Below are positions 4,436 to 16,200 of a stretch of 29,988 nucleotides of DNA, in pieces. Location of the stretch: positions 1 to 29,988 of the IMG/VR virus record IMGVR_UViG_3300020204_000253. One strand, given 5' to 3'. Below the pieces are notes generated by a model. It was not told the origin of the DNA and did not search any database. It was given only the letters and a program-made list of their open reading frames with translations. How positions within the stretch are numbered: position 1 is the stretch's first letter; every line of letters starts with the position of its first letter. Origin of the DNA: a virus. Made by a program: the position numbers and the translations under genes.

Positions 4436-5431
4436 GTGAGCCTTTATATCGATGTCAAGTATTTAAATCTGTCGTCTTCTAATCTATCCCTTTTTAAGAA
4501 AAAAGGAGAAGCTCTTTGGAACTTCAGGTGTCCCTTTTGCGGCGATTCTGAAAAAAAGAAATCAAAGGCAAGAGGTTACATTTACAAGAAGGCAAACGAC
4601 TTATATTACAGGTGTCATAACTGTGGCTATGGAACAACGTTTTCTAAGTTCCTTGAAAAAATTGACCCAGTACTTAAAAGGGAATATGTAAAAGAACGAT
4701 TCTTAAACGGAGAAACTGGAAAGCACAACTACAAGAAACCAGTTCTGTTCGCTCCCCCGAAGTTCCAGAACAAAGTAAAGATCAACCTGCAATCTATAGA
4801 AGACTTACAAGAAGATCACTGGGCAAGGAAGTACGTTCGTGACAGGTATATTCCTGATAGTCATTATCGCAACCTGTACTTTGCCCCAGACTTCAAGAAG
4901 TTTGTAGAAGAAATGGGTTCACCAAAGTTTGCAGACCTTAAAGAAGATGATCCGAGATTAGTGATTCCTTTCTACGACGAAGAAGGAAATTTATTCGCCT
5001 TTCAAGGAAGAGCTCTTAAGGACTCAAAGGTTCGCTATATCTCTATCAAGCTAAATACTGATGCGCCGTTAATTTATGGTTTAGATCGTGTGAACAAGGA
5101 TGCTCCTGTCTACGTTGTTGAAGGTCCGCTGGATTCCCTATTTTTAAAGAACTCCATTGCTGCTGCTGGATCTGACCTTTCAAGAGTACTCTCGACTATC
5201 CCTAATCCAATCTTTGTCTTTGATAACGAACCAAGAAACAAAGAGATCTGCAAAACGATGGCAAAGCTGTTGTCGTCTGGTAAGAAGTTCGTTATTTGGC
5301 CTAATAGTTTGCTAGAAAAAGACATCAACGACATGGCTCTTTCTGGTCGTAATTATGAAAAGGTGATTCAAGAAAACACCTTTGAAGGTATTGAAGCTTG
5401 TGCAAAATTTGCTTTTTGGAGAAAAGTATGA
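4436..5431 (+). CDS. 61: T4 gp61-type DNA primase
   Basis: A 331-aa protein from a GTG at 4436 (T4 gp61 is 342 aa). An N-terminal zinc ribbon has CPFCGD (residues 32-37) and CHNCG (60-64). The Toprim domain has VYVVEGPLDS (E229 and D233 as metal-ligand acidic residues), FVFDNE and KDINDMAL. Gp61 makes RNA primers for lagging-strand synthesis with the gp41 helicase, which is not in this window. Start choice is uncertain: GGAGG is 12 nt upstream, long for a ribosome binding site, while the promoter would begin transcription at the GTG. The gene overlaps the next small gene by ATGA. Confidence 0.9.
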   Translation: MSLYIDVKYLNLSSSNLSLFKKKGEALWNFRCPFCGDSEKKKSKARGYIYKKANDLYYRCHNCGYGTTFSKFLEKIDPVLKREYVKERFLNGETGKHNYKKPVLFAPPKFQNKVKINLQSIEDLQEDHWARKYVRDRYIPDSHYRNLYFAPDFKKFVEEMGSPKFADLKEDDPRLVIPFYDEEGNLFAFQGRALKDSKVRYISIKLNTDAPLIYGLDRVNKDAPVYVVEGPLDSLFLKNSIAAAGSDLSRVLSTIPNPIFVFDNEPRNKEICKTMAKLLSSGKKFVIWPNSLLEKDINDMALSGRNYEKVIQENTFEGIEACAKFAFWRKV

Positions 5432-5926: not shown

Positions 5927-6655
5927 ATGGCATCGTATAAAAAGTATGAAGACATTTTGAAGATCGAACTGGTGTCGCATAGCACTTCACCAGCTCCAGA
6001 GAAGTATGGTAAGGATTTAAAAGAACTAATTACCTTCTGTGCACGAGTCTCAAATCCTTCTAACCAGTCAAATATGGATACGGCTGACAAGCTAATTAAG
6101 TATCTTCTTAAGCACAAACACTTCTCGCCTTTTGAAATGGTAAATGTCTGCCTAGAGATTACTTCTACCAGAGACATCATTCGACAGATTCTTCGTCATC
6201 GTTCTTTTACATTTCAAGAATTTTCACAACGATATGCTGATCCAGTGCAGGAGCTAGACTTCTGTATTCGAGAGTGTCGGTTCCAAGATACAAAGAATCG
6301 GCAGAACTCTATCTCTATAAATGCCGCGCTACAAAATGATCAAGATTATTTTGAGCGTAATCGCATCAGTTCAATCTTCTATAATTTACAACATGAACAT
6401 ATTCAAAAATGCAAAGAAGATTATTCGTTTCTAGTGTCACATGGTGTGGCCAAAGAACAAGCCAGAGCTATTCTTCCTGAAGGCAACACAATCTCTCGTT
6501 GCTACATGAGCGGAACTCTCAGGTCTTGGCTTCACTATATAGAAGTTAGAGAGAAAAACGGTACACAAAAAGAACATATGATGATTGCTCGTGAATGCGC
6601 AAAGGTTATCTCAAAGTTATTCCCACCGATCATCGATTTACAGGAGAACATTTAA
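5927..6655 (+). CDS. thyX: Flavin-dependent thymidylate synthase ThyX
   Basis: A 242-aa protein with the ThyX signature RHRSFTFQEFSQR at residues 90-102 (RHRx7S) and the usual FSPFEMVNVCLEI and LPEGNTISRCYMSGTLRSWLHYI segments. ThyX makes dTMP from dUMP using FAD, NADPH and methylene-tetrahydrofolate and is unrelated to T4 Td (ThyA type). It is translated directly after the SNase gene (1-nt gap), and its stop overlaps the nrdJ start (TAATG), so dTMP synthesis and ribonucleotide reduction are coupled in one operon. Confidence 0.95.
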   Translation: MASYKKYEDILKIELVSHSTSPAPEKYGKDLKELITFCARVSNPSNQSNMDTADKLIKYLLKHKHFSPFEMVNVCLEITSTRDIIRQILRHRSFTFQEFSQRYADPVQELDFCIRECRFQDTKNRQNSISINAALQNDQDYFERNRISSIFYNLQHEHIQKCKEDYSFLVSHGVAKEQARAILPEGNTISRCYMSGTLRSWLHYIEVREKNGTQKEHMMIARECAKVISKLFPPIIDLQENI

Positions 6656-8004
6656 TGTCATTAGAGAATTACACTTCAGAGATCTTATCTTCGGACTTCC
6701 TTCAGAAGTATGTTGGGAAGCAGCCCGATTGGGGGTTTAGTAATCTCGGGTACATCGTCTACAAGAGAACCTATTCAAGAAAGATTGATGAGAACACCAC
6801 TGAAGAATGGTGGCAGACTGTTGCACGTTGCGTAAACGGTGCACAAAAACTAGGAGCCAAATATACTCCTGATGAGGCTCAACGGTTATATGATCTCGTG
6901 TTCAACCTGAAGTGTAACTTCGCTGGCCGTATGTTGTGGCAGCTTGGTACATCGACTGTTGATAGGTTTGGTGCCAACTCACTTCTTAACTGTTGGTATA
7001 CAGCTATTCGTAAGCCCGAAGACTTCTGTTTTATTTTTGAGAACCTCATGCTTGGGGGAGGCGTCGGCTTCTCAGTAAAACGCGAAGACGTTCACGAACT
7101 ACCAAAGGTGAAGAAGGGTGTTGTAATTGCTCATAAGCTTACTAAAGACGCAGACTATATCGTTCCCGATTCGCGCGAAGGTTGGGTGATGCTGCTTAAA
7201 AACATCCTCAATTCATATTTTGTGACAGGTAAGTCGTTTAGTTATTCAACTATTCTTGTTCGTGGCGCAGGTGAGACTATTGCTGGATTCGGCGGCACTG
7301 CTTCTGGTCCGCGTATTCTTATTGAAGGAGTGGAAAAGATCAGCAAGGTTATCCTCAATCGCGAAGGAAAGAAGCTGCGTTCTATTGATGTTCTAGACAT
7401 CGCTAACATTATTGGTTCTGTTGTGGTTGCTGGGAACGTTCGTCGCTCTGCTGAAATCGCTGTTGGTGATCCAGACGACTTTCATTTTCTACGTGCAAAG
7501 CGTTGGGATCTCGGGAACATTCCTAACTGGCGAGCCATGTCGAACAATACAATCTCGGCTGATTCTTATGAGCAAATTAGCAATACAGTATGGGATGGGT
7601 TTGAAGGCAACGGCGAACCTTATGGTCTCTTCAATCTCCCGCTAGCTAAAAAGTATGGTCGCCTTGGCGATGAACGTAAAGACGACTGCGAAGGTGTTAA
7701 TCCTTGCTTGACTGGAGATACTTTGATTACCACGGATCAAGGAGATAAGCTTCTGAAAGATATTATCTTTAATATTGAAGATACTAAGGTATTGACAATG
7801 AACACCGATACCAAAGAACTTAGTTATGAACGTCTGGTTTACCGTGGGTTGACTCAAGAGTTTGCTAATGTTATCTCTGTCAAATGCAAGGATGGTACGG
7901 TGTTGAAGTTGACTCCAAACCATCATGTCTTTGTAAAAGACAAAGGTTGGATTCCTGCTTCAGATCTAAAGAGTGGGGATAAGGTTTTCAAGGTCAAGAA
8001 ATAG
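6655..8004 (+). CDS. nrdJ: NrdJ N-extein fused to split-intein N-half
   Basis: A 449-aa product starting MSLENYTSEILSS. AGGAG lies 8 nt upstream of the ATG at 6655, and TAATG overlaps thyX. Residues 1-350 are the N-terminal half of a class II (adenosylcobalamin-dependent) ribonucleotide reductase: EEWWQTVARCVNGAQ, FAGRMLWQLGTSTVDRFGANSLLNCW, LMLGGGVGFSVKREDV, IVPDSREGW, IIGSVVVAGNVRRSAEIA, GNGEPYGLFNLP, ending CEGVNP. At C351 (codon 7705-7707) an intein begins: block A CLTGDTLITT and block B LTPNHHVFV, ending with a stop after 99 intein residues. The reductase is therefore incomplete alone. The remaining 295 residues are in the gene at 8759-9772, joined by protein trans-splicing to about 645 aa. 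Confidence 0.93.
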   Translation: MSLENYTSEILSSDFLQKYVGKQPDWGFSNLGYIVYKRTYSRKIDENTTEEWWQTVARCVNGAQKLGAKYTPDEAQRLYDLVFNLKCNFAGRMLWQLGTSTVDRFGANSLLNCWYTAIRKPEDFCFIFENLMLGGGVGFSVKREDVHELPKVKKGVVIAHKLTKDADYIVPDSREGWVMLLKNILNSYFVTGKSFSYSTILVRGAGETIAGFGGTASGPRILIEGVEKISKVILNREGKKLRSIDVLDIANIIGSVVVAGNVRRSAEIAVGDPDDFHFLRAKRWDLGNIPNWRAMSNNTISADSYEQISNTVWDGFEGNGEPYGLFNLPLAKKYGRLGDERKDDCEGVNPCLTGDTLITTDQGDKLLKDIIFNIEDTKVLTMNTDTKELSYERLVYRGLTQEFANVISVKCKDGTVLKLTPNHHVFVKDKGWIPASDLKSGDKVFKVKK

Positions 8005-8009
8005 TTTTT

Positions 8010-8017
8010 TATAAATA
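8010..8017 (+). promoter_or_regulatory. T4-type late promoter of the intein-associated endonuclease gene
   Basis: Perfect TATAAATA, 6 nt after the stop of the intein N-half gene. With T4 late spacing, transcription would begin near 8023-8024, inside the 5' arm of the hairpin at 8015-8044, so late transcripts cannot form that hairpin. Confidence 0.8.
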
Positions 8018-8044
8018 TACTTAGGGATTGGAGCCTAAGTATAT
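8015..8044 (+). promoter_or_regulatory. Start-codon-sequestering hairpin upstream of the endonuclease gene
   Basis: A perfect 11-bp inverted repeat: ATATACTTAGG (8015-8025) pairs with CCTAAGTATAT (8034-8044), with an 8-nt loop GATTGGAG. The loop carries the GGAG ribosome binding site, and the 3' arm includes the first two bases of the ATG at 8043. In read-through nrdJ transcripts this should block endonuclease translation. Confidence 0.85.
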
Positions 8045-8786
8045 GTTGACCATAGAGAACCTAGATGTAGAAAAGTTTGGTAAGATAAAGGAATGGGTTG
8101 ATGTTTTGTACTCGCATAGTCCATCAAGATGCACTATGCCAAAGTCTAAAAGACAAGAGTGGGCAGAAGCCCATCCTTTATCTTCTGATCTAGTAGAATA
8201 TATGTCCATGATATATTCCTCTGGATATGGCCTAAAGGTAATATCTAGACAGTTGGGAGTTTGTTATTCTCAGTTACGTGGTCTGTTTCAGGATCATTGG
8301 AGAATAGAAATAAACAAAGGAAATAATATTGTTTATGATAAGACCAAGCAGTTCAGATCAAAGAAGGCCAAAGAAGATCCAAACAATCCATTTAGAGACT
8401 GGACGAGTAAACAAAGTAGAGTTAAGACTAATCATGGGGTTCAGGGTTATTATATAAACAAGAAAAATCAAAAACTTTGGCTCAGATCAACTTACGAATA
8501 TATCTATTGTAAATGGTTAGACGAACATGATATTGATTATAGGTACGAGGAAAAAATTTTCCAACTAACAAACGGAGAAAAATATAAACCAGATTTTTTC
8601 ATCGGAGATTCTACTATTATTGAGATAAAAGGAAACTTTTATACAAATCGAAGATATAAAGCGGACATGCTAAAAGAGAAACATCCAGAGTTGAAAATCG
8701 TAGTTATAGATGACATCGCACAATATACAAAAAAAGGATATACACAGGAGATAAAAGAATGGAAGAAAACCAGATTATTGAATTAG
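8043..8786 (+). CDS. Free-standing PD-(D/E)xK-type homing endonuclease between intein halves
   Basis: A 247-aa protein from ATG 8043; a TTG at 8028 lies within the hairpin loop and is less likely. Segment GYGLKVISRQLGVCYSQLRGL (about residues 70-90) looks like a helix-turn-helix. The C-terminal domain has LRSTYEYIYCKWLDEHDIDYRYEEKIF, YKPDFF and IIEIKGNF, giving the PD...ExK nuclease pattern with an upstream conserved Glu. This type, including Vsr-like (EDxHD) enzymes, is known beside fractured phage genes with split inteins; I cannot separate the subfamilies by eye. It presumably cuts intein-less nrdJ to spread the cassette. The gene is visibly more AT-rich than the flanking extein DNA. Its 3' end overlaps the next gene by 28 nt. 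Confidence 0.85.
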   Translation: MLTIENLDVEKFGKIKEWVDVLYSHSPSRCTMPKSKRQEWAEAHPLSSDLVEYMSMIYSSGYGLKVISRQLGVCYSQLRGLFQDHWRIEINKGNNIVYDKTKQFRSKKAKEDPNNPFRDWTSKQSRVKTNHGVQGYYINKKNQKLWLRSTYEYIYCKWLDEHDIDYRYEEKIFQLTNGEKYKPDFFIGDSTIIEIKGNFYTNRRYKADMLKEKHPELKIVVIDDIAQYTKKGYTQEIKEWKKTRLLN

Positions 8787-9772
8787 AAGTAGAATCTATC
8801 GAAGTTGAAGAAAATCAAGATGTCTACGATTTAACTACAGAACACAATCACAATTTTTTTGCGAACGGAGTTTTGGTACATAATTGTGCCGAGATTACTC
8901 TTTCAGATAAAGAATGTTGCAACCTTTCAGAGATCTACCTTAACAACATTAGCTCGAAGGAAGAGTTGATTGAGTGTGCAACGCTCTTGTACAAGACGCA
9001 GAAAGCTATCTGTGCGATGCCGTTTATTCACCCAGAAACAACTGAGATCGTTCACAAGAACATGCGTATTGGTGTTGGAATTACTGGTATCTGTCAGTCG
9101 AAGTCGAAGCTTGAATGGCTCTCGGATGCTTATAAAGCGTTGCGTAAATTTGATAAAGTATGGTCAAAGGAAAACGGTTGGAACGAATCTATCCGTCTTA
9201 CCACAACAAAGCCTTCAGGTACTCTTTCCCTGTTAGCTGGATCTTCCCCTGGTGTTCATCCTGGATTCAGCCGCCACTTTATTCGTCGCGTTCGTATGTC
9301 TTCTTCTGATACGCTTGTTGCTACTTGCCGTGGACTTGGTTATCACGTCGAGTTTGCTAAAAACTTTGATGGCACAGAAGATCATTCCACCTGCGTTGTT
9401 TCGTTCCCCTGCTCTTTTGGAGAAGATACAATTCTCGCTAAGGACATGTCAGCTGTTGATCAGCTTGAAATGGTTAAGAAGATCCAGACGGTCTGGTCTG
9501 ACAACGCTGTTTCGGTCACTGTTTACTACCGTAAGGAAGAGCTACCCGCGATCAAGGAATGGCTGAAGGAAAACTACGCCAACTCCCTGAAGTCTGTTTC
9601 GTTCTTGCTTCATTCTGAACATGGTTTCGCACAAGCGCCATATGAAGAGATCACTGAAGAAGAATGGAAGAAGATGTCAGCAAAAGTACTTCCTCTCACG
9701 AATGTGATGATTTCCGAAGGCGCTGACCTAGAAGGTCTAGGTTGCGATCAGGGAGTCTGCCCAATCAAGTAA
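8759..9772 (+). CDS. nrdJ: Split-intein C-half fused to NrdJ C-extein
   Basis: A 337-aa product starting MEENQIIELEVESIE. AGGAG lies 8 nt upstream inside the endonuclease gene. Residues 1-42 are the intein C-half with blocks F and G (DVYDLTTEHNHNFFANGVLVHN), ending in the expected His-Asn. Residue 43 is Cys (codon 8885-8887), both the +1 splicing nucleophile and the catalytic radical cysteine in the joined NP-CAEITLSDKECCNLSE. The rest holds the class II reductase C-terminal half: TTTKPSGTLSLLAGSSPGVHPGFS phosphate-binding region and a C-terminal CDQGVC redox pair. Translation of this gene depends on its own start, so reductase activity needs both genes plus trans-splicing. Confidence 0.93.
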   Translation: MEENQIIELEVESIEVEENQDVYDLTTEHNHNFFANGVLVHNCAEITLSDKECCNLSEIYLNNISSKEELIECATLLYKTQKAICAMPFIHPETTEIVHKNMRIGVGITGICQSKSKLEWLSDAYKALRKFDKVWSKENGWNESIRLTTTKPSGTLSLLAGSSPGVHPGFSRHFIRRVRMSSSDTLVATCRGLGYHVEFAKNFDGTEDHSTCVVSFPCSFGEDTILAKDMSAVDQLEMVKKIQTVWSDNAVSVTVYYRKEELPAIKEWLKENYANSLKSVSFLLHSEHGFAQAPYEEITEEEWKKMSAKVLPLTNVMISEGADLEGLGCDQGVCPIK

Positions 9773-11893: not shown

Positions 11894-11904
11894 GCACCAA
11901 ATTG

Positions 11905-11948
11905 CCTTTAGAATCAATGGTTTAGCGCAAGTCGTTGATTCTAAAAGG
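11905..11948 (+). repeat. Dispersed stem-loop, copy 1
   Basis: TTTAGAATCAA (11907-11917) pairs perfectly with TTGATTCTAAA (11935-11945), with a 17-nt loop TGGTTTAGCGCAAGTCG. Two more C-G pairs are possible beyond a one-base bulge. It shares arms and loop with copies at 11997-12052 (inverted) and 15344-15397. It lies just upstream of the leftward promoter at 11893-11865. Confidence 0.9.
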
Positions 11949-11996
11949 AATATAGTCCACCTTATTATATGCATGCATACGCGCGAGAGAAAATTT

Positions 11997-12052
11997 TTAT
12001 TCCTTTTATTTTCAATGACTTGCAGCTAAACCATTGATTTTAAAGAGAATAA
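11997..12052 (-). repeat. Dispersed stem-loop, copy 2 (inverted, degenerate stem)
   Basis: The minus strand carries the loop TGGTTTAGCTGCAAGTCA between arms containing TTTAAAATCAA and TTGAAAATAAA. The outer stem is still paired (TTATTC with GAATAA), while three central positions have become A-A or T-T mismatches. It lies directly upstream of the rightward promoter at 12058-12086. Between copies 1 and 2, 11949-11996 shows no gene. Confidence 0.85.
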
Positions 12053-12057
12053 AAAAC

Positions 12058-14103: not shown

Positions 14104-14198
14104 CCTCCTATAGTTCAATTGGAAGAACAGCTGATTTATATTCAGTATTAGCGGCAGATTACCGTAAGGTTCAGGTTCGAATCCTGATGGGAGGACCA
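14104..14198 (+). tRNA. tRNA with long variable arm, anticodon loop reads UAU (Ile-type)
   Basis: Acceptor CCTCCTA (14104-14110) pairs with TGGGAGG (14188-14194), then A73 and encoded CCA. D-stem GTTC/GAAC. Anticodon stem GCTGA/TCAGT with loop TTTATAT, so positions 34-36 are UAU (would read AUA). T-arm TCAGG/CCTGA with TTCGAAT loop. The variable region is 24 nt (14147-14170) and can form a 6-bp stem with one bulge, as in class II tRNAs (Leu, Ser, Tyr). A UAU anticodon belongs to isoleucine, whose tRNAs normally have a short variable loop, so identity is uncertain. Confidence 0.75.
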
Positions 14199-14882: not shown

Positions 14883-15338
14883 GTGTCGCCGCGCAAGGCT
14901 ATAAAGCTTCTTGTTCGTGGTGTCGCGATTGCTGAGAAGTATTCAGAAGAAGTCTGGCGTGGCGTCACCAGCCAAATCGTGATTCCTTCAGTTGTTCGTC
15001 TGTTGAACTTCTATAAAATTCCGCATAGAATATACAGGCTATCGAAGCGAAATATTTTTGCCAGAGACAACTGGACTTGCCAATATTGTCAAACACAAAC
15101 GTTTGGTAATAGCGGTACAATCGACCACGTCATACCACGTTCGCGTGGAGGAGAATATTCTTGGGACAATTTGGTAACGGCTTGCAAATCCTGTAATTCA
15201 AAAAAGGGAAACAAGACGCCAGCCGAAGCAGGAATGAAATTGTTCAACAAATCACCAAAGTTGAACTACAGAGCAATCCTGCGAAATCTAGGAGCCTCCC
15301 GCGCAGAATGGCGTGAGTACTTGTTCCTTGGAGCCTAA
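14883..15338 (+). CDS. HNH endonuclease (5' end possibly frameshifted)
   Basis: 151 aa from a GTG at 14883. The HNH zinc-finger core has CQYC (C66, C69), IDHVIPRSRGG (D81, H82), DNLVTAC (N96) and CKSCN (C101, C104), a complete HNH motif. The N-terminal SPRKAIKLLVRG is the usual lead-in of this subfamily, whose members normally start with a segment like YEPI-x-x-VS; here that segment (YEPIQTVS) lies in frame upstream of the GTG without a start codon. An ATG at 14858 overlapping the upstream stop would reach it after a +1 shift. Probably a free-standing homing-type nuclease, placed between accessory genes and stem-loop copy 3. Confidence 0.8.
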   Translation: MSPRKAIKLLVRGVAIAEKYSEEVWRGVTSQIVIPSVVRLLNFYKIPHRIYRLSKRNIFARDNWTCQYCQTQTFGNSGTIDHVIPRSRGGEYSWDNLVTACKSCNSKKGNKTPAEAGMKLFNKSPKLNYRAILRNLGASRAEWREYLFLGA

Positions 15339-15343
15339 ATTTT

Positions 15344-15397
15344 TATTTCCTTTAGAATCAATAGTTTAGCTGCAAGTCATTGATTCTAAAGGAAATA
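15344..15397 (+). repeat. Dispersed stem-loop, copy 3 (18-bp perfect stem)
   Basis: TATTTCCTTTAGAATCAA (15344-15361) pairs perfectly with 15380-15397, with loop TAGTTTAGCTGCAAGTCA. It shares the inner arm and loop with copies at 11905-11948 and 11997-12052. It follows the HNH gene and precedes a sigma70-like promoter, so it probably ends the upstream transcription unit. Confidence 0.92.
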
Positions 15398-15426
15398 TAG
15401 TTCTAGCTTTTTTTGCGCCAATGCGC

Positions 15427-15468: not shown

Positions 15469-15684
15469 ATGGATTTGTTTGTTTTGTTCGGTGTTGTGAC
15501 TGGCTGGTGGCGTGCTGATGTGCTGGGCGTGTACTCCACCCGAGAAGCGGCTGTCGAAGCTGCCGCCTCCTTTGAAGAGACCGAAGGCCACGGTCGATGG
15601 TATGATTCGTTCCAAGTTTGCGTGCATTATCTGGATGAACCTGCTGAACTTGGACAAAACCGCGTAGAAGATTTCGTCCTGTAG
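15469..15684 (+). CDS. Hypothetical 71-aa protein whose 3' end overlaps tRNA-Lys
   Basis: MDLFVLFGVVTGWWRADVLG..., then YSTREAAVEAAASFEETEG and VCVHYLDEPAELG. ATG at 15469 with AAGGAG about 11 nt upstream. The middle resembles short phage proteins that start with a beta strand and a helix, but no family is certain. The last four codons plus TAG (15682-15684) lie inside the tRNA-Lys gene, so the stop codon doubles as tRNA positions 8-10. Confidence 0.7.
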   Translation: MDLFVLFGVVTGWWRADVLGVYSTREAAVEAAASFEETEGHGRWYDSFQVCVHYLDEPAELGQNRVEDFVL

Positions 15685-15750
15685 CTCAGTTGGAAGAGCA
15701 CCGCACTTTTAATGCGAGAGTCGCAGGTTCGAGTCCTGCCAGGATCACCA
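15675..15750 (+). tRNA. tRNA-Lys (UUU)
   Basis: 76 nt including encoded CCA. Acceptor CGTCCTG pairs with CAGGATC except for a C-C clash at 1:72 and a G-U at 2:71. D-stem GCTC/GAGC, anticodon loop CTTTTAA (UUU), T-arm GCAGG-TTCGAGT-CCTGC. The anticodon stem has a C-A at 27:43. The two mismatches suggest a partly decayed or unusual tRNA. The 5' acceptor arm overlaps the upstream coding sequence. Confidence 0.88.
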
Positions 15751-16124: not shown

Positions 16125-16200
16125 GCTGGCCTAGCTCAATTGGCAGAGCATCTGATTTGTAATCAGAAGGTTGTCAGTTCGATTCTGACGGTCAGCTCCA
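16125..16200 (+). tRNA. tRNA-Thr (UGU)
   Basis: 76 nt with encoded CCA. Acceptor GCTGGCC pairs with GGTCAGC (one G-U). D-stem GCTC/GAGC. Anticodon stem CTGAT.../...ATCAG region with anticodon TGT. T-arm GTCAG-TTCGATT-CTGAC. The discriminator is U73, unlike E. coli tRNA-Thr, which has A73. It lies 8 nt after the putative structured RNA. Confidence 0.93.

Follow-up and report, generated by a model that had tools for sequence, protein, structure and literature searches.

An endonuclease gene lying between the two halves of a split intein, within a ribonucleotide reductase gene, raises the question of how its expression is timed relative to that of the reductase around it. Our analysis of one such locus suggests that nrdJ very probably carries a late-timing switch for the homing endonuclease between its split-intein halves.

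The nrdJ locus and its endonuclease

The window, the whole stretch of 29,988 nucleotides analysed here (IMG/VR record IMGVR_UViG_3300020204_000253), is a genome fragment (30 kb) from an uncultured T4-like phage, with genes for the sliding clamp, clamp loader, RegA, neck, tail-sheath stabiliser and tail tube. Its gp44 is nearest to those of Pelagibacter phage HTVC008M and cyanophages (57%). The window also encodes tRNA-Ile(TAT) at 14104-14198, tRNA-Lys(TTT) at 15675-15750 and tRNA-Thr(TGT) at 16125-16200, and an ORF at 11-505 with tandem Pro-Val-Ala/Asn-Pro repeats, possibly part of a structural protein. Two related inverted-repeat elements (11896-12055 and 15335-15406) have common arms around CCTTTAGAATCAA and GCTAAACCATTGATT, and an HNH-like ORF (14883-15338) directly precedes one of them. 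The nrdJ locus is made up as follows.

6655..8004, + strand: N-terminal part of nrdJ, a class II ribonucleotide reductase (PF17975, PF21995, PF14890; phrog_367)
7699..7704, + strand: N-side half of the homing site, AATCCT (Asn-Pro of NPC), immediately 5' of the intein
Cys codon at 7705 to stop codon at 8002-8004, + strand: intein N-half of the nrdJ-N ORF (PF14890)
8043..8786, + strand: homing endonuclease, 247 aa (PF05367, E = 4.5e-10; PDB profile hits 1m0d and 3cae)
8759..9772, + strand: nrdJ C-terminal ORF, including the intein C-half at 8759-8884 (PF14890, PF02867)
8885..8890, + strand: C-side half of the homing site, TGTGCC (Cys-Ala of NPC-AE), immediately 3' of the intein

The intein starts with CLTGDT and finishes with VHN/C. 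PF14890 is matched in both halves, which occupy separate ORFs flanking a free endonuclease ORF matched by PF05367; the arrangement is that of a split-intein fractured gene, and the preliminary description of this locus, which had placed an endonuclease between split-intein halves of nrdJ, was correct in this respect. The near relative L006 (85% identical) has an uninterrupted site, with the reductase parts continuous.

The endonuclease consists of a helical N-terminal part and an Endonuclease-I-type PD-(D/E)XK C-terminal domain (model pLDDT 86). Residues E152, D184, E194 and K196 are invariant in an alignment of 17 relatives, and the endonuclease profile matched T7 Endonuclease I in the PDB. 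The predicted enzyme is thus an Endonuclease-I-type PD-(D/E)XK nuclease. Assignment as a GIY-YIG enzyme (a homologue of I-TevI) was rejected, PF05367 being the sole match and the family scan containing no GIY-YIG domain, as was assignment as an HNH enzyme (a homologue of mobE), the HNH motif being absent in both Pfam and family scans. The new endonuclease family that Dassa and colleagues described for fractured genes is said to be Vsr-like; the window enzyme matches T7 Endonuclease I by sequence. No sequence match of the endonuclease to the Vsr-like I-Bth0305I was found; comparison of the folds gave a probability of 0.99 but an E-value of 0.035, and a fold search returned nothing at E ≤ 0.001. 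Relatives were absent from the cellular genome contigs searched, and annotated phages yielded only distant Endonuclease I matches. The DNA encoding a conserved motif at the endonuclease C-terminus (like KELKEWK; window 8740-8770) doubles as the Shine-Dalgarno sequence and ATG of nrdJ-C. This dual-use stretch, AAGGA...GAATGG, is found at the same place in most cassettes and precedes the intein-C/nrdJ ORF.

A hairpin and a late promoter motif at the endonuclease start

The region between the intein-N stop and the first codons of the endonuclease contains the following elements.

7992..7997, + strand: 5' arm of an outer stem, GGTCAA, within the coding end of intein-N (MFE structure)
8010..8017, + strand: TATAAATA, putative T4-type late promoter with predicted +1 at 8023 (motif match; orientation bias of NATAAATA)
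8015..8025, + strand: predicted hairpin 5' arm ATATACTTAGG
8026-8033, + strand: 8-nt loop GATTGGAG, with a GGAG Shine-Dalgarno sequence at 8030..8033
8034..8044, + strand: predicted hairpin 3' arm CCTAAGTATAT, whose terminal AU is the AU of the AUG
8046..8051, + strand: 3' arm of the outer stem, TTGACC, in endonuclease codons 2-3, pairing with 7992-7997

The preliminary description had reported a perfect 11-bp stem (8015-8025/8034-8044) with GGAG in the loop and AUG in the stem, and TATAAATA at 8010-8017. All 11 pairs are indeed Watson-Crick, GGAG lies in the loop at 8030-8033, and TATAAATA is where it was placed, its last three bases overlapping the 5' arm. The position of the AUG held in part: the A and U (8043-8044) are paired, and the G (8045) is outside the stem. 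A 6-bp outer stem (7992-7997 GGUCAA/8046-8051 UUGACC) had been missed. T4 late-promoter spacing puts the predicted +1 at 8023, in line with the earlier suggestion that late RNA would lose the greater part of the 5' arm: of the 20 pairs that keep the start region closed, 17 involve a 5' base located before this position. The 81-nt fold has a z-score of -2.7, with 3 of 200 shuffles as stable, and the hairpin had no Rfam match at E ≤ 1. Two IMG/VR contigs (L002 and L003) share the identical element within DNA 99.9% identical to the window, and are therefore uninformative for covariation and lend no independent support.

The hairpin lies directly 3' of the nrdJ-N stop and might, instead of locking the start codon, terminate transcription or direct RNA processing at this gene boundary; an RNase E-like site occurs in Aeh1 mobE RNA (PMC2988022). 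We regard this as very improbable: no T tract follows the hairpin, and termination here would leave nrdJ-C untranscribed as well, since no separate promoter was seen for that ORF. Moreover, in the wider family described below the stem brackets the start codon despite a varying distance from the intein-N stop. A scan for sigma-70 promoters and terminators found neither at the hairpin.

Constitutive coupling, in which the hairpin is melted by ribosomes finishing intein-N at 8004 and endonuclease synthesis always accompanies that of nrdJ, appears improbable, if less so than termination or processing. The AUG is only 38 nt 3' of the stop, and a terminating ribosome would be expected to melt the outer stem at 7992-7997; judging from footprint size, however, a ribosome at the stop would extend only to about 8014 and leave the inner arm, which begins at 8015, uncovered. 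Across the family, stop and start may overlap or lie over 100 nt apart. The preferred reading remains a hairpin that would close the endonuclease start in read-through RNA.

The cassette family and the late promoter motif

Selection cannot be demonstrated from a single locus, and diverged cassettes were therefore sought. Profile searches, first with two sequences and then with 17, yielded about 60 loci, of which 32 non-identical cassettes with usable starts were used for counts. All 32 are in ribonucleotide reductase genes, with the reductase cut at an Asn-Pro-Cys site and the intein C-half downstream of the endonuclease wherever this was readable. Several loci depart from the common layout. 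In L034, from a 303-kb phage, a second nrdJ split intein follows VKPSG (4462-4939), its halves without an endonuclease, leaving the reductase in three pieces; in L040 (3452-4657) an extra C-terminal stretch lengthens the endonuclease frame to 401 aa; and in L111 (3974-4594) a frame change or stop interrupts the endonuclease gene between the intein halves, probably marking a decaying copy.

TATAAATA was found at most 60 nt upstream of 12 of the 32 endonuclease starts, compared with 7 of 209 control starts (p = 1e-7). Sixteen cassettes carry TATAAATA or its TAAATA variant, and in 15 of them, L049 being the weak case, most of the pairs holding the start have a partner upstream of the predicted +1; late RNA would therefore lose those pairs. 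A clear promoter or a strong hairpin is missing from L043, L062 and L105, and L034 has a short hairpin around a second ATG without a late promoter.

Totals of TATAAATA in larger contigs were not clearly above a reversed-pattern control, so the orientation of the motif at gene starts was used instead. Upstream of ORFs in the window and five T4-like relatives, NATAAATA occurred 59 times in the forward and 4 times in the reverse orientation (p = 7e-14). It precedes major head, baseplate wedge and tube-cap genes, and within the window, where numbers are small, it lies upstream of 5 of 16 structural genes and 1 of 21 replication genes. This bias supports a role of NATAAATA as a putative promoter in this phage group. 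Among the T4 late-transcription factors, the gp45 clamp gene is present in the window, and gp55 and gp33 were not seen within the 30-kb fragment. The gp55 late sigma was found in a close relative of the window phage, whose gp44 is 71% identical, and both gp55 and gp45 are encoded by the phage of cassette L038.

TATTTATA, the late octamer in reverse complement, takes the place of the promoter motif in one clade. It was present in 8 of 32 cassettes and 2 of 209 controls, and was located in the hairpin loop or before the start in L051, L059, L092, L098, L100, L103 and L047. Phages of the L051 group gave only a weak gp55-like match.

Predicted opening of the start region

In read-through RNA, the calculated cost of opening the endonuclease start of the window was 14.8 kcal/mol, a value reached by 1.4% of the 209 control starts, and it fell to 2.9 kcal/mol when the RNA began at the predicted late start, 8023. 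The identical calculation for T4 I-TevI gave a fall from 14.6 to 4.6 kcal/mol, and this near-equality supports the likeness to I-TevI that the preliminary description had drawn. The other starts in the same gene string were cheap to open, at 2.3 kcal/mol for thyX, 4.1 for nrdJ-N and 2.0 for nrdJ-C, whose RBS and ATG are located within the endonuclease gene.

Closed endonuclease starts were also found across the family. The median opening cost was 11.1 kcal/mol for the 32 cassettes and 4.9 kcal/mol for the 209 other starts at the same loci (p = 3e-12), a comparison in which control starts were first-ATG guesses, some family start codons were uncertain and cassettes were related to one another. 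An automatic start rule changed 8 starts, and p was still 1e-10. In each of the 29 cassettes that could be scored for both, the endonuclease start was at least as closed as the nrdJ-C start, with a near-tie in L062 (medians 10.9 and 2.5 kcal/mol, p = 2e-9).

Probable selection on pairing

Upstream and start segments of the same cassette paired at -17.3 kcal/mol, compared with -11.1 kcal/mol when each was combined with those of other cassettes (0 of 20000 permutations); for control genes, the same arm swap gave -10.9 (own) and -10.0 kcal/mol (swapped; p = 0.2). The search for stem covariation in homologous cassettes that the preliminary description had proposed gave a positive result in the L051 clade, where both partners had changed in 6 of 14 pairs (1 of 500 shuffles); sliding the arms in the alignment abolished this signal. 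In the clade with an NPWN motif, pairing at the proline wobble base was seen in 8 of 10 cases (p = 0.01). This pairing could partly reflect two copies of the homing site, and we therefore gave weight to the L051 clade and the swap test instead. In the protein tree, TATAAATA devices are present on both main branches, with a median end branch of about 0.4 substitutions per site. Taken together, the arm swap, the covariation and the occurrence on both branches argue that the predicted architecture is kept as the stem sequence drifts.

These data also bear on a chance origin of the hairpin and promoter-like octamer in AT-rich phage DNA. TATAAATA is indeed expected about twice per window (1.9 times; it was found 6 times), and the window contains other strong hairpins. 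Perfect stems of at least 11 bp with loops of 3-20 nt, however, numbered 3 in the window with only 0.2 expected from Markov shuffles, and chance would account for neither the geometry conserved throughout the family nor the covariation; we consider it extremely improbable. A design that recurs family-wide in unrelated letters looks selected rather than accidental.

A reversed homing-site core

One further element overlaps the predicted promoter.

8020..8029, − strand: candidate operator AATCCCTAAG across the predicted +1, matching the homing core AATCCTTGTG at 7 of 10 positions, a weak match for this locus alone

Across the family, AAYCCNTR, which corresponds to the Asn-Pro-(Cys) codons of the homing site, was found on the opposite strand upstream of the endonuclease in 24 of 32 cassettes and 1 of 209 controls (p = 3.5e-25); the motif had been spotted by eye before counting, which makes the p-values optimistic. 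The strict, codon-defined form AAYCCNTGY, which follows from the genetic code alone, was present in 15 of 32 cassettes and 0 of 209 controls. In many cassettes the reversed core abuts TATAAATA or sits just behind it. The likeness to each cassette's own homing site extends over only about 10 bp, with flanks at background. A second inverted copy is formed by the codons AAT CCN TGG in cassettes of the NPWN clade.

In T4, I-TevI is autorepressed: the enzyme binds an operator that resembles its homing site and overlies its late promoter (PMC2988022). By analogy, the window endonuclease would repress its own promoter through the reversed homing-site-like sequence. It could be argued from this precedent, from the counts above and from the second copy in the NPWN clade that the inverted repeat is mainly a DNA operator, comprising two inverted homing-site-like copies for autorepression, and that the RNA hairpin is a by-product. 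We find this doubtful, though the most serious of the alternatives considered. The similarity to the homing site covers a short stretch, the longest stems (L051, L047, L108 and L083) lie mostly outside it, and the window itself has only the 7-of-10 match. Stems in the family contain G-U pairs, and closed endonuclease starts alongside open nrdJ-C starts are unneeded for an operator. The operator may instead act alongside the RNA switch, which we continue to prefer.

Model of endonuclease expression

We propose that RNA read through from upstream would fold into the hairpin, with the endonuclease start locked and both nrdJ starts open. Once late transcription begins, the promoter in the 5' arm would start RNA at about 8023. 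This RNA, minus most of the 5' arm, would have a 20-nt leader in which GGAG and AUG are free, and the endonuclease would be made. As a possible third layer, the endonuclease may shut its own promoter via the reversed homing-site-like sequence. The start at 8023, its late timing and the translational repression are what we infer from the sequence elements; nrdJ would then be expressed early and the nuclease late, and the switch would serve to shield nrdJ or to prevent premature cutting.

A broader version of the model, which we put forward tentatively and hold to be slightly more likely to fail than to stand, is a three-layer module (late promoter, start-codon hairpin and reversed homing-core AAY CCN TGY operator) acquired independently of I-TevI, with neither the nuclease nor the mobile element homologous to its counterpart there, and with the arms of one clade formed from two inverted homing-site copies. 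The homing-site mimic is the part most likely to be new. If the operator reading is true, the target specificity of the nuclease and its self-control evolve together. Dassa and colleagues reportedly observed some fractured loci with apparent gene control elements brought in alongside the endonuclease gene.

Few cases are known of the early-off/late-on switch of T4 intron endonucleases. The cassettes described here form a large, diverged set from uncultured phages that keeps the geometry as the letters change, and selection on the switch can therefore be compared across relatives. One control design would join group I introns, free-standing endonucleases and split inteins, and the cassettes would be compact natural late-expression modules, testable in T4-infected E. 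coli.

Comparison with known systems

The putative late-timing module is of an already known kind, here extended to split-intein cassettes. The logic of late promoter and hairpin has been reviewed for I-TevI, I-TevII, I-TevIII, segB and Aeh1 mobE (PMC2988022). An I-TevI-like switch, as the preliminary description had suggested, gains support from the recurrence of its geometry in deeply diverged cassettes with unrelated stems. Whether the device was reused independently or inherited had been left open, and the answer divides: within the endonuclease family, inheritance with sequence turnover is the simplest account, since the device is on both main tree branches, and relative to I-TevI it would not have been inherited with the protein, since I-TevI is a GIY-YIG enzyme and the window enzyme is of the Endonuclease I type.

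The closest parallel is T4 I-TevI of the td intron, where, as predicted for the window, a late promoter overlaps the hairpin and late RNA is without the 5' arm; the host gene of both belongs to nucleotide metabolism. I-TevI also has a homing-site-like sequence over the promoter, for which the window has a candidate counterpart with a shorter operator similarity. They differ in the element, a GIY-YIG enzyme in a group I intron as opposed to an Endonuclease-I-type enzyme between split-intein halves, and in the manner of occlusion: the RBS of I-TevI is described as sequestered (PMC2988022), whereas in the window GGAG is predicted to be unpaired in the loop and occlusion would act via the AUG and its flanks.

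Aeromonas phage Aeh1 mobE resembles the window in that the endonuclease splits a ribonucleotide reductase gene, nrdA, and in having both an RBS hairpin and a late promoter (PMC2988022, citing Gibb and Edgell 2007, 2009); unlike the window enzyme, MobE is an HNH endonuclease, no intein is involved and the NrdA pieces assemble without splicing. T4 gene e and soc follow the same logic, their start sites being masked in early transcripts and released by transcription from late promoters (PMC3014915), although these are phage late genes and not mobile endonucleases. In gene organisation, the locus resembles the 'fractured genes' of phage replication, including those for ribonucleotide reductase, in which a free-standing endonuclease gene lies between split inteins (Dassa et al. 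2009).
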